A stretch of 64,000 nt of DNA from assembly GCF_000378945.1 (NCBI RefSeq), contig NZ_KB900539.1:3608122-3672121 (forward strand). The letters run 5' to 3'. The translations under genes and the position numbers were made by a program. Source of the DNA: Methyloversatilis universalis EHg5. Its GTDB lineage: Bacteria > Pseudomonadota > Gammaproteobacteria > Burkholderiales > Rhodocyclaceae. The first letter of the stretch is position 1. Each line of letters starts with the position of its first letter. The notes under the pieces were generated by a model. The model did not search any database and was not told the origin of the DNA. It was given only the letters and a program-made list of their open reading frames with translations. Below are positions 54,562-61,061 of the stretch, in pieces.

Positions 54562-54598
54562 GACGATGCGACTCCTGAAAGCGATTCATGCCTTCATT

Positions 54599-54613
54599 GC
54601 ATCTGTCGTGCCA
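54599..54613 (-). promoter_or_regulatory. Sigma-54 promoter of acoXABC
   Basis: On the minus strand the site reads TGGCACGACAGATGC: GG-N10-GC spacing and a full TGGCACG, with ATGC instead of TTGC. The predicted start of transcription is near 54588, about 27 nt before the acoX GTG. AcoR-controlled aco operons in other bacteria use sigma-54. Confidence 0.78.
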
Positions 54614-54744
54614 GATACAGTCGCACCGGACACCTCCCGTGCGCAAACCGATGATTTGGAAGCACTCTCTGCATCGTTCGACGACACCATCGTCATGAGC
54701 GAGACAAAAAGCGCGGGGAGTGAGACGCCGCGCGCCTCTCCGTC

Positions 54745-54760
54745 TGAGACAGCTGTCTCA
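54745..54760. promoter_or_regulatory. Predicted AcoR binding site (perfect palindrome)
   Basis: TGAGACAGCTGTCTCA is a perfect 16-bp palindrome centred about 165 bp upstream of the predicted acoX transcript start, between acoX and acoR. Extra half-sites lie at 54700-54706, 54721-54726 and 54814-54820 (GAGACA or TGAGAC). The 337-bp intergenic region 54562-54898 thus holds a sigma-54 promoter and a multi-site activator region. A 14/16 copy occurs at 60873. Confidence 0.72.
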
Positions 54761-54898
54761 GTTTTTGGAGACATTCGTCGCGTTGCTTTCCGGCGAAAGC
54801 GCGCCTACCCTCACGAGACAACACAGGGGAAGCATTCCCTCAGGCGGCACAGATCGCCACACAAAGAAGTAAATATCCGATAACGGAGGAGGCGCTTT

Positions 54899-56971
54899 AT
54901 GAGACAAGGTCGCGAGATCGCGGACCACGTCGGTCGTGTCATGAACATCGTCGAAGGCCGCGGCCATTCGGTGCTGTCCGACCCCCATCACGAACGCGTG
55001 GCGCGCTCATGGAAGCGCTCGCTGAACAAGCACTCGATCGATCCGTCGCTGTCGTCGGTACCCAAGGTGGTCACCGCCTACGAACTGCGCGAACACCGCG
55101 ACCGCATCGAAACCTTCATGCGCATTGCGCGTGAAGGGGTCGAGCGCCTGCACAATGAACTGCTGCCGGCAAATTACTGTGTGCTGCTCACCGACGCTGC
55201 CGGCGTCACCGTCGATTACCGCGCGGTGCCTCACCTGGAGCGCGAGTTCAAGGACGAAGGCTTCCGCGCCGGCACCTGCTGGTCGGAAGAGAGCGAAGGC
55301 ACCTGCGGCGTCGGCACCACGCTGATCGACCGCCAGCCCACGCTGATCCACCGCAACGAACACTTCCGTTCGCACAACACGCAGTTCACCTGCAGCTCGG
55401 CACCGATACTGGGCCTGCAAGACGAACCGATCGCGGTGCTGGACGCCTCCGCGCTGTACTCGCCGGACGGCCGTGAAAGCCAGCTGCTGGTGTTCCGCAT
55501 GGTGTGCGAGAAGGCGCGCCTGATCGAGGACGCGTACGCCCACTACAGCCTGCGCAACCACTGGACGCTGCAGCTCGGCCAGGTCGCCGAGTTCATGCCG
55601 GTCGAGACCGATTACCTGATTGCCTTCGACGACGACGGCCGCATCCTTGGCGGCAACCGCCGGGCGCGCAACGAACTGATCACGCACAACGGTCGCCGCG
55701 CCGAGTTCCTGCAGGATCTGTTCGAGTGTTCGGCCAACGACATCATGGTGTCGGCCCACGCCAGCCCGGGCACGCCCTTCCCGCTGCGCATGCTGGCCAC
55801 CGGCCGCCGCCTGTTCGCGGTGCTGCGCGCGCCGAACGCACGCTCGCCGGCCCAGGTCACGCAGTCCAAGCCGGTGCAGACCGAAGAGAACGCCACCGCA
55901 CCGCGCGGTTTCCGCCACCTCGCGCTGGGCGACCCGCGTATCAAGAGCAATGTGCAGTGCGCGGTGAAAGTCGCGAACCGCGACATCCCGGTCATGCTGC
56001 TGGGCGAAACCGGCACCGGCAAGGAAGCCTTCGCCCGCGCCATCCATGACTACAGCGAGCGCGCCAAACAGCCCTTCGTTGCACTGAACTGTGCCGCCAT
56101 CCCGGAAAGCCTGATCGAGAGCGAACTGTTCGGCTACCGCGACGGCGCCTTCACGGGTGCGCGCAGCAAGGGCGCCAAGGGCAAGATCCTGCAGTCGGAT
56201 GGCGGCACGCTCTTCCTCGACGAAATCGGCGACATGCCGCTGTCTCTGCAGAGCCGTCTGCTGCGCGTGCTGGCCGAAGGCGAAGTGGTGCCGCTGGGTG
56301 CCGAACAGCCGACGCCGGTAAATCTGCACGTGATCTGCGCCACCCACCAGGACCTGCCGGAACTGGTGCGCCAGGGCCGCTTCCGCGAAGATCTGTTCTA
56401 CCGCCTGAACGGCGCCAGCTTCATGCTGCCGCCGCTGCGCAACCGCGAAGACAAACGCGAACTGATACAGCTGGTGATGCGCGAAGAGTGCGCCGCCATG
56501 AGCCGCGAGGAACTGCGCATCGCGGAAGACACGATGGGCCGCCTGCTGGCCTACGACTGGCCTGGCAACATCCGCCAGCTGCGCCACGCCATCCGCTACG
56601 CCTGCGCGATCGCCGACGGCAACCAGGTCACCATCGAGCACTTCCCGCAGGAACTGCGCGGCAGCGCCGCCAGCCAGGCACGCGTGATACCGCAGCCGGC
56701 CCAGCAGCCGCCGGCCGCACCCAGCGTGCCGCGCAGCAGCGCAGCCGCACCCGACCCCTGCGAACTGCGCGACGGCGAGCCGCTGAACGAAGCCTGTATG
56801 CAGCTGCGCCAGAAAATGCTCGATGCGCTGCGCCGCAATCACTGGCGGGTGACCGAAACCGCCCGCCAGCTGGGCATGTCGCGCGCCACCTTCTATCGCA
56901 AGATGGCGCGGCTGCGCATCGTCGCACCGAACTATCTGGACGGCGAAGACAGCGTGGTCGGCCACGGCTGA
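54899..56971 (+). CDS. acoR: AcoR-type sigma-54-dependent activator
   Basis: 690 aa; ATG follows GGAGGAGGCGCTTT. An N-terminal GAF-type sensor (about 60-210; [15 protein letters not shown]) and a PAS-like middle part precede the AAA+ domain. That domain has Walker [15 protein letters not shown] and [13 protein letters not shown]. The C-terminal Fis helix-turn-helix is [20 protein letters not shown]. AcoR responds to acetoin or acetaldehyde and activates the aco operon. It diverges from acoX. Its predicted site also occurs in front of the porin and thiC. Confidence 0.95.
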
Positions 56972-56998
56972 TCTGGCGCGCAGCTGACCCACTCACAC

Positions 56999-57025
56999 GG
57001 GGCGCTCAGGCGCCCCGTTTCTTTT
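56999..57025 (+). terminator. Rho-independent terminator of acoR
   Basis: Stem GGGGCGC / GCGCCCC with loop TCAG, then GTTTCTTTT, 28 bp after the acoR stop. Confidence 0.85.
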
Positions 57026-57056
57026 GATGGCCGCCGATGGGCGCTGTCCGTCAAAC

Positions 57057-59477: not shown

Positions 59478-60680
59478 TCAGAACATGAAGTTCAGACCGA
59501 CGTTGATCAGCGTGCTCTTTTCGCCCGGGGTCACGCCGGCAGCGACGATGCTGGTGCGCAGCGTTGCGCCCGGATCGGCGTCAGCGAAGGCGGCCTGCAC
59601 GTACAGCGTGGTGTCCGGACGCCATTGGTAGTCGTTGCTGATCACGATGAACTTGGTTTCATCGGTCTTGTTGGCATCGTCCTTGTTCAGATAGAACGCG
59701 AGCGTAGCCGAGTTCTTGGCGCTCCACTTCCAGTCCAGACCGGTGCTGTAGCCATTCACGTCAAACAGCTTGTTGCCGGCGCTGTTGTCGTTCTTGGCGT
59801 TCATCCAGTTGTTCTTCCAGGTGAAGTCGCCGAACGGGATCGCGAAGCCGAGGGAGGTGTGATCCACCACCTTCTTGCCGGTCTGTTCGTCGTGGAAGGC
59901 CTGGTACGAACCGGACAGGGTGACCGGACCGTTGTAGGTCACACCCAGCGCGTAGGCGCTGTTGTCCTTGAAGTCACCGGCCTGGCCGCCGAAGGAGTAC
60001 AGCACGCCCACGGTCACCGGACCCCAGGTATTGCGGTACTGCACGGCATTGTTCATGAAAATGCCGACGTCGTTGTTGGTGTTGCGACCGCCACCACCTG
60101 CCGGAGCATTGAAGGTGGTGAACAGCTGGCCGTAGGCCCAGGCGTACAGGTTGGAGAACTGTTCCTTGAACGCACGCGGCTCGGTGCCGATGTGGGCCAG
60201 CAGGGCCGGGCCGTACTGACGACCGAAGGTCAGGCTACCCCAGTCACCGCGCACACCCAGGTTGGCCTGACGACGGAACAGCGGGGTGCTCACGCCACCG
60301 GGGCCGGTGCCGGCTGCATCACCGGTGCCGTGCAGGAAACCGTTGTTGGTGTCGAAGTGCGACTCAAGGTTGAAGAAGGCGGTCAGGTTCACGTCGAGCT
60401 CACGCTCGCCCTTGAAACCGATCACGGTCTGACGCAGACCGCTGGTTTCCATCGAGGTACGGCTGTCACCTGCGGCGTTGGCCTGGCTGTTGTACAGCAT
60501 GCCAACGTCGATGATGCCGAACATCGACAGCTTGGTGCCGCCCATTTCGCCGATGACGATATCGGCCATGGCCGGCGACGAAATCACGGACAGCGCCGCG
60601 ACGGCGGCTGCGCCCACCGTGAGCTTGCGCGAGATTTTCAGTGCGGCGCTGTTCAGCGACTTGCGTCCAGTTCTTGTCAT
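59478..60680 (-). CDS. Outer-membrane trimeric porin
   Basis: 400 aa. The ATG with GGAGGGG upstream gives MTRTGRKSLNSAALK, followed by a signal peptide ending ISSPAMA. The mature start (DIVIGEMGGTKLSMFGIID) and alternating strands ending in a C-terminal Phe (VGLNFMF) are those of betaproteobacterial general porins. It probably admits the small solutes used by the periplasmic dehydrogenase. It is preceded by a sigma-54 promoter and a site shared with the aco operon, and is followed by the dehydrogenase gene in the same direction. Confidence 0.92.
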   Translation of the reverse strand: MTRTGRKSLNSAALKISRKLTVGAAAVAALSVISSPAMADIVIGEMGGTKLSMFGIIDVGMLYNSQANAAGDSRTSMETSGLRQTVIGFKGERELDVNLTAFFNLESHFDTNNGFLHGTGDAAGTGPGGVSTPLFRRQANLGVRGDWGSLTFGRQYGPALLAHIGTEPRAFKEQFSNLYAWAYGQLFTTFNAPAGGGGRNTNNDVGIFMNNAVQYRNTWGPVTVGVLYSFGGQAGDFKDNSAYALGVTYNGPVTLSGSYQAFHDEQTGKKVVDHTSLGFAIPFGDFTWKNNWMNAKNDNSAGNKLFDVNGYSTGLDWKWSAKNSATLAFYLNKDDANKTDETKFIVISNDYQWRPDTTLYVQAAFADADPGATLRTSIVAAGVTPGEKSTLINVGLNFMF

Positions 60681-60762
60681 GTTCCCCTCCGTGTGATGCT
60701 GGTGATGAATCACTGGTTGAAATGCGGCGTCCGCGGACCGGACTACCGTCGGAGGGCTTAAG

Positions 60763-60777
60763 GCAGCATTCATGCCA
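60763..60777 (-). promoter_or_regulatory. Sigma-54 promoter of the porin/dehydrogenase genes
   Basis: The minus strand reads TGGCATGAATGCTGC, with GG-N10-GC spacing and 9 of 11 consensus positions. The predicted transcript start is near 60751, about 70 nt before the porin ATG. It lies within the 381-bp porin/thiC intergenic region together with the AcoR-like site at 60873. Confidence 0.65.
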
Positions 60778-60872
60778 CTGAAGCAATCGCCCGCAAACCC
60801 GCATGAAACCTGGGGGTTTGGCGATGAGACAAAGAAGGGTGCGACAACTGTACGGGTGAGACGCCGCGCGTT

Positions 60873-60888
60873 TGCGACAGCTGTCTCG
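60873..60888. promoter_or_regulatory. AcoR-like site between porin and thiC
   Basis: TGCGACAGCTGTCTCG matches the acoX/acoR palindrome at 14 of 16 positions and keeps the perfect GACAGCTGTC core. TGAGAC half-sites lie at 60825, 60857 and 60917. The flanking words TGAGACGCCGCGCG (upstream) and GCGAAAGCGC (downstream) occur beside both palindromes. The centre is about 130 bp from the porin start site and about 117 bp from the thiC start site. Confidence 0.7.
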
Positions 60889-60970
60889 CCGCGAAAGCGC
60901 ATTTGCGACGTGCGGGTGAGACAGGCTGCACGCGCTGCCGGAGCGCATCACCCGCATCCCCGCAGGCGCG

Positions 60971-60985
60971 TGGACTGGAACTTGC
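60971..60985 (+). promoter_or_regulatory. Candidate sigma-54 promoter of thiC
   Basis: TGGACTGGAACTTGC has GG-N10-GC spacing and a full TTGC, but only TGG of the -24 element. The predicted start is near 60997, 65 nt before the thiC ATG. Confidence 0.5.
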
Positions 60986-61061
60986 GTCAGCTCCGGCACG
61001 AGGTGCGGCTCACGCACCCGCAATAACGAAGAACCGGACCGCAGCACGAACAGGAGTTTCA

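Follow-up and report, generated by a model that had tools for sequence, protein, structure and literature searches.

The stretch of 64,000 nucleotides of the Methyloversatilis universalis EHg5 genome that we analysed (contig NZ_KB900539.1, positions 3,608,122 to 3,672,121; here called the window and numbered from its first letter) contains an acetoin dehydrogenase operon, the divergent gene of the sigma-54 activator AcoR, an operon for a pyrroloquinoline quinone (PQQ)-dependent alcohol dehydrogenase and, next to the latter, a gene for the thiamine synthesis enzyme ThiC. Judged from the DNA, AcoR and sigma-54 very probably co-activate three functions: the cleavage of acetoin, the oxidation of alcohols by quinoproteins, and a supply of thiamine and lipoate that is free of riboswitch control. 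The most telling fact lay beyond the view of an earlier note on this DNA that had proposed a common circuit: the thiC gene of the window is a second copy (thiC2), and no thiamine diphosphate (TPP) riboswitch was found in its leader.

Operator-like sites and promoters in the two intergenic regions

The acoX/acoR gap carries the palindrome TGAGACAGCTGTCTCA (54745..54760), and the porin/thiC2 gap carries TGCGACAGCTGTCTCG (60873..60888), which matches it at 14 of 16 positions, as the earlier note had stated. These are the only sites in the window with up to three mismatches to TGAGACAGCTGTCTCA, and 20 Markov surrogates of the window had on average 0.00 sites at up to two and 0.20 at up to three mismatches. 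The degenerate site GGAGACATTCGTCGCG (54767..54782) lies 22 bp from the palindrome at 54745, and the upstream site TGCGACAACTGTACGG (60840..60855) lies 32-33 bp from that at 60873. In the 12 same-genus genomes with acoR that we used as the conservation sample, 15 and 14 of the 16 columns of the two palindromes are invariant, as are 13 of GGAGACATTCGTCGCG and 10 of TGCGACAACTGTACGG, whose TGCGACA-N2-TGT core is present in 12/12. TGAGAC/GTCTCA half-sites occur 15 times in the window, and three fall in each gap (0.08-0.09 expected), confirming that both gaps share them. Two flanking words to which the note had also pointed, TGAGACGCCGCGCG (54721 and 60857) and GCGAAAGCGC (54793 and 60891), are indeed present in both gaps but not conserved in full in the alignments of the relatives; they were set aside and given no weight.

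The genome-wide search for the 16-bp motif that the note had suggested returned four sites with up to two mismatches to TGAGACAGCTGTCTCA in 4.09 Mb and none for the reversed pattern used as a control; with up to three mismatches, the numbers were 10 and 4. The four sites are those of the acoX/acoR and porin/thiC gaps and two upstream of further PQQ dehydrogenases. The third site (C1:765187) is located 5' of a PQQ alcohol dehydrogenase gene (TIGR03075, above the cut-off), referred to below as the distant PQQ alcohol dehydrogenase, and a sigma-54-like promoter, TGGCACGAATGCTGCA, follows 134 bp on. The fourth (C1:744104), with an additional site 22 bp off, stands 5' of a gene for a PQQ dehydrogenase that best matches the membrane-bound subfamily, below the cut-off. 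Together, the 13 genus genomes contain 30 sites at up to two mismatches (control: 0): 12 in acoX/acoR gaps, 5 in porin/thiC gaps, 6 at the distant PQQ alcohol dehydrogenase, 1 at another PQQ dehydrogenase and 6 elsewhere. The 28 genomes outside the genus yielded four sites versus six for the control.

Three sites with one or two mismatches, in three genomes (L205, L206 and L209, near 5191, 5074 and 4941), adjoin a GGDEF-EAL signalling gene, the domains having been searched in L206 only. They have no sigma-54 promoter at 9/12 or better and were not counted as regulon; likewise, we did not count the single sites in G006, G003 and G002.

Promoters were scored as GG-N10-GC in a TGGCAC/TTGCA context, using 12 letters of the consensus. 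As the note had claimed for acoX and the porin and, with reserve, for thiC, such sequences face acoX (TGGCACGACAGATGCA, 54598..54613, minus strand; 11/12 letters), the porin operon (TGGCATGAATGCTGCC, 60762..60777, minus strand; 9/12) and thiC2 (TGGACTGGAACTTGCG, 60971..60986, plus strand; 8/12), the last of them a candidate that is not significant by its score. The GG-N10-GC of the acoX and porin promoters is kept in 12/12 alignments, in the porin case from reading the alignments, and that of the thiC2 promoter is also present and conserved; 13, 10 and 13 of the 16 columns, respectively, are invariant. It is this conservation that makes the thiC promoter credible. In the porin/thiC gap, 83 of the 299 gap-free columns are invariant across the 12 genomes, including 36 of 235 outside named features, and the two best-conserved 16-bp stretches are the palindrome (14/16) and the thiC-facing promoter (13/16). 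In the acoX/acoR gap, 50 of 253 columns outside named features are invariant. Measured centre to centre, the palindromes lie 147, 111 and 98 bp from the acoX, porin and thiC promoters, respectively; the note had given 117-165 bp.

Two thiC copies with distinct control regions

TPP riboswitches govern thiamine synthesis through end-product feedback. One such riboswitch (RF00059) was found in the genome, 5' of thiC1 and not of thiC2 (61062..62978, plus strand), the second of two genes for HMP-P synthase (NCBIfam and Pfam ThiC); between positions 54500 and 61300, which include the thiC2 leader, there was none up to an E-value of 1. One riboswitch was likewise found in each of the 13 genus genomes, up to 146 first-look candidates having been scored in each (in G006 and G009, every candidate), so that the number means one found. 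It precedes thiC1 in all eight genus leaders read, and in these riboswitch-bearing leaders neither the promoter core TGG[AC]CTGGAA nor the site TGMGACA-N2-TGT was found (8/8). Hence, thiC1 is of the known riboswitch-controlled kind, whereas thiC2 has a sigma-54-like promoter and AcoR-type sites instead.

The coding sequences of the two copies are 97.0% identical in this genome and 95.5-99.9% identical in the seven genomes in which both copies were compared, one of them with a partial copy. In the identity table of these seven genomes, the thiC copies are nearer to their own-genome partner than to any row of another genome. Six of the seven within-genome pairs are sisters in the thiC tree, five with strong support and that of G010 at 93/94; the G009 pair was unresolved. 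Since the copies keep their position and control regions from species to species, this pairing appears to be better explained by gene conversion than by repeated duplication, and the best reading of thiC1 and thiC2 would be one enzyme under two controls. The copies at 61062-62978 of the window and at 6752-8680 of L141 evolve in concert under control regions that have remained different, which is probably why several draft assemblies are broken within thiC.

Genes of the predicted regulon and their distribution

The operon on the minus strand starts with acoX (53518..54561), a NAD-kinase-like gene (Pfam NAD_kinase) located before acoA. It continues with acoA for the TPP-dependent E1 alpha subunit (52350..53537; best NCBIfam match TIGR03182, below the cut-off), acoB for E1 beta (51307..52317; PRK09212, above the cut-off) and acoC for the acetoin dehydrogenase E2 (50195..51307; NF011457, above the cut-off). 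These four genes stand in the order of an acetoin dehydrogenase system, with E1 alpha below the curated cut-off. AcoA and AcoB require TPP, and AcoC requires lipoate. The earlier note was silent on the next three genes: lipA2 for a second lipoyl synthase (49165..50115; TIGR00510, above the cut-off), thiS2 (48954..49172; its translation of 72 amino acids ends in GGG and shows a 54% match to the frame directly beside thiG1) and thiG2 for a second thiazole synthase (48144..48950; Pfam ThiG). The last gene (47339..48091) encodes a short-chain dehydrogenase/reductase (SDR), a candidate butanediol/acetoin reductase with matches to SDR families including acetoin reductase, the best 25 of 232 matches all being below the cut-off. 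Further copies of thiC, thiG and lipA are each present elsewhere in the genome. As lipA2 and thiG2 are only 61% and 74% identical to lipA1 and thiG1, they appear to be older paralogs.

The gene acoR (54899..56971, plus strand) is divergent from this operon, and its product has the features of a sigma-54 activator according to Pfam and motifs: an AAA+ domain with Walker A and GAFTGA at residue 416, and a Fis-type helix-turn-helix. Past acoR, the minus strand carries genes for a c-type cytochrome (57113..57532; Pfam Cytochrome_CBB3), the PQQ alcohol dehydrogenase (57700..59388; Pfam PQQ, TIGR03075 below the cut-off) and a Gram-negative porin (59478..60680; Pfam Porin_4), followed by thiC2 on the plus strand. 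This dehydrogenase and the enzyme at C1:765443 have the DYD motif, which we take to be the lanthanide-type signature. At L005 (8444-10207 and 12220-14058), the dehydrogenase L005a has DYD and its neighbour L005b has DYS, presumably calcium-type.

An AcoR ortholog (at least 77% identity) is present in 11 of the 12 other genus genomes. All 11 keep the order SDR-thiG-lipA-acoCBAX / acoR / cytochrome-PQQ dehydrogenase-porin / thiC2 as far as the contigs reach, contig ends cutting thiC2 in five of them. The orthologs of the distant PQQ alcohol dehydrogenase are preceded by tandem sites (up to three mismatches each) 25 bp apart and by a sigma-54-like promoter in 11/11 cases. This gene is located about 3 kb from thiC2 in G012 and similarly near a thiC end, by analogy that of thiC2, in G008; therefore, it probably once belonged to the aco/thiC2 locus. 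G002 has no acoR ortholog, only single thiC, thiG and lipA genes and, at the threshold used, no ortholog of the distant PQQ alcohol dehydrogenase; its sole motif match is within a recQ-like gene. These absences, which cover acoR, thiC, thiG, lipA and the distant dehydrogenase, fit joint control. In G003 only the aco copy of thiG was matched, and in G005 there was no thiC match, probably due to contig breaks in thiC.

Outside the genus, a single contig of Zoogloea oleivorans (AcoR 63% identical) carries the aco-lipA-thiG genes and acoR and, after about 7 kb of other sequence, the cytochrome, PQQ dehydrogenase and porin genes and the start of thiC. Its porin/thiC gap contains two palindromes 33 bp apart and the promoters TGGCAAGGAAGTTGCA (porin) and TGGCCTGATATTTGCT (thiC). 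On a different contig lies the start of a second thiC with a TPP riboswitch, none being found at the locus thiC; over 899 bases, these starts share 98.0% identity. A metagenome-assembled Azoarcus genome keeps the aco-lipA-thiG genes, acoR and a PQQ dehydrogenase; thiC was not found in it. We sought the operator upstream of 46 AcoR homologs chosen among 80 loci. The exact palindrome is present 5' of acoR in Zoogloea and two Paraburkholderia (L007, L008 and L009), and the aco operons there carry lipA. L013 has a form with two mismatches, equalled in 4.9% of random windows, and L044 one with three (2.2%). In both Paraburkholderia (L008 and L009), the retrieved flanks yielded no ThiG relative; therefore, the coupling of lipoate synthesis to aco may be wider than that of thiamine synthesis.

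Genome-wide specificity, conservation in 12 genomes and the Zoogloea locus support the proposal of the earlier note that aco, the quinoprotein operon and thiC are jointly under sigma-54. For the common regulator, we infer that AcoR, rather than an AcoR-like paralog, binds the predicted sites. Several observations weigh against this picture. The exact palindrome is missing upstream of 43 of the 46 AcoR homologs, and apart from the forms in L013 and L044 these regions match it no better than random windows do. Of the 30 sites in the genus, six fall outside the regulon, three beside the GGDEF-EAL gene and three singly. The 60873-type palindrome is less symmetric, ending in TATCG, in 7 of 12 genomes. 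Paralogs of the distant PQQ alcohol dehydrogenase with 75-76% identity (L226 and L227) are without the tandem sites, and in G007 acoR is present without an ortholog of this dehydrogenase. Finally, passages of a study on Methyloversatilis FAM5 (PMC5023235) report strong expression of several PQQ dehydrogenases while the acetoin genes were silent. Therefore, not every PQQ unit would depend on AcoR alone, and the distant PQQ alcohol dehydrogenase, if among those strongly expressed, would not.

The own paralogs of AcoR also speak against it as the sole regulator. The genome encodes three with 51, 41 and 41% identity, which share the helix-turn-helix class and the R-x-T-x-YR recognition helix with AcoR, and a fourth with 33%. 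An everted TGTCTCA...TGAGAC lies near the 51% paralog, and TGAGACAGGTGTAGCG with a sigma-54-like promoter lies beside the 41% paralog at 2483446; the site TGCGACATTTGTAGCG upstream of the distant PQQ alcohol dehydrogenase resembles it. Hence, a different activator (the paralog at C1:3226826, 1440604 or 2483446) might bind some or all of the sites, and aco and thiC2/quinoprotein would be separate circuits with related operators. This is unlikely in our view, as the exact palindrome precedes acoR itself in Zoogloea and the two Paraburkholderia, and G002 retains three paralogs (51, 40 and 40%) with its only site in the recQ-like gene, although several target genes are absent there too. Related half-sites in everted order (TGTCTCA...TGAGAC) stand where two AcoR-like paralogs have other PQQ dehydrogenases nearby (L138, about 11207-11230; L140, about 8165-8225), which suggests related operators with a different geometry.

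The palindromes might also serve only acoX and the porin operon, with thiC2 a mere neighbour read from an unrelated promoter. The thiC promoter scores just 8/12, a value reached by 151 sites in 64 kb, so that the score alone is not significant, and its distance from the palindrome varies among genomes. We regard this explanation as slightly less probable still, since 13 of 16 columns of this promoter are invariant versus 36 of 235 outside named features, a similar one faces thiC in Zoogloea, and its core was not found 5' of the riboswitch-bearing thiC in 8/8 genomes. Alternatively, thiC2 might be a redundant gene that arose by recent duplication and serves no particular function. Its 97.0% DNA identity to thiC1 would agree with this, but the explanation is highly improbable: position and control region are the same in 12 genus genomes and Zoogloea, and within-genome pairing at a conserved position indicates gene conversion rather than a recent duplication.

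Proposed mechanism and relation to known systems

In the co-activation that we favour, acetoin or a related C4/C2 compound would probably activate AcoR, which would bind tandem TGMGAC-N4-GTCKCA-like sites and act with sigma-54 polymerase. Four units would be switched on together: acoXABC-lipA2-thiS2-thiG2-SDR, porin-PQQ dehydrogenase-cytochrome c, thiC2, and the distant PQQ alcohol dehydrogenase. The periplasmic dehydrogenases would oxidise alcohols, likely 2,3-butanediol or ethanol, AcoABC would cleave acetoin using TPP and lipoate, and the second copies of thiC, thiS, thiG and lipA would supply these cofactors. TPP should repress thiC1 through its riboswitch, from which thiC2 would be free; thus, the pyrimidine branch could rise although TPP is present, and with it thiamine synthesis, when the AcoABC complex is built. 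Gene conversion would keep the two ThiC enzymes near-identical while their control regions differ. We infer transcription, substrates and benefit, and all steps from AcoR binding to that benefit.

The coupling of thiamine and lipoate synthesis to acetoin is itself already described, so the note's view that such co-control is undescribed holds only in part. In Pelobacter carbinolicus, the acetoin cluster comprises acoR1, acoX and the aco genes along with a lipoyl synthase gene (acoS) and five thiamine genes; it was mostly upregulated on acetoin, and the thiamine genes are redundant (passages of PMC3543383). Unlike here, those 28 genes form one contiguous cluster; the passages mention no PQQ dehydrogenase, riboswitch or separately controlled thiC pair, words that were not searched for in the paper. 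According to passages of a study on Pseudomonas putida KT2440 (PMC8427195), acoX and acoR adjoin the acetoin genes there as well, and the PQQ dehydrogenases PedE and PedH, the latter requiring lanthanum, oxidise (2S,3S)-2,3-butanediol to acetoin and so feed it into the acetoin route, which is a reason to co-control such enzymes with acetoin cleavage. Unlike here, pedE and pedH (PP2674 and PP2679) are apart from aco (PP0552-0557), and the word thiamine does not occur in the main text. Among the literature matches listed (titles and abstract openings), none dealt with a second thiC controlled by AcoR or sigma-54; this is weak evidence of absence, as most subscription journals were outside the search. 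We conclude that this is a well-supported predicted regulon, a variant on the known coupling.

We also think it probable, if less firmly than the co-activation itself, that a catabolic activator took over a private cofactor kit (riboswitch-free thiC and the copies of thiS/thiG and lipA), induced by acetoin together with lanthanide-type quinoproteins, gene conversion leaving only the control of thiC different. The predicted sites provide an operator model for AcoR in this bacterial group, and a single predicted regulon joins alcohol oxidation by predicted lanthanide-type quinoproteins with acetoin cleavage. If true, the second thiC would let the cell evade riboswitch feedback by the end product whenever it induces an enzyme complex with a high cofactor demand. 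Since a near-identical second enzyme gene seems to be wired to a substrate-responsive activator, it would offer a clean natural test of feed-forward versus feedback control of cofactor supply.

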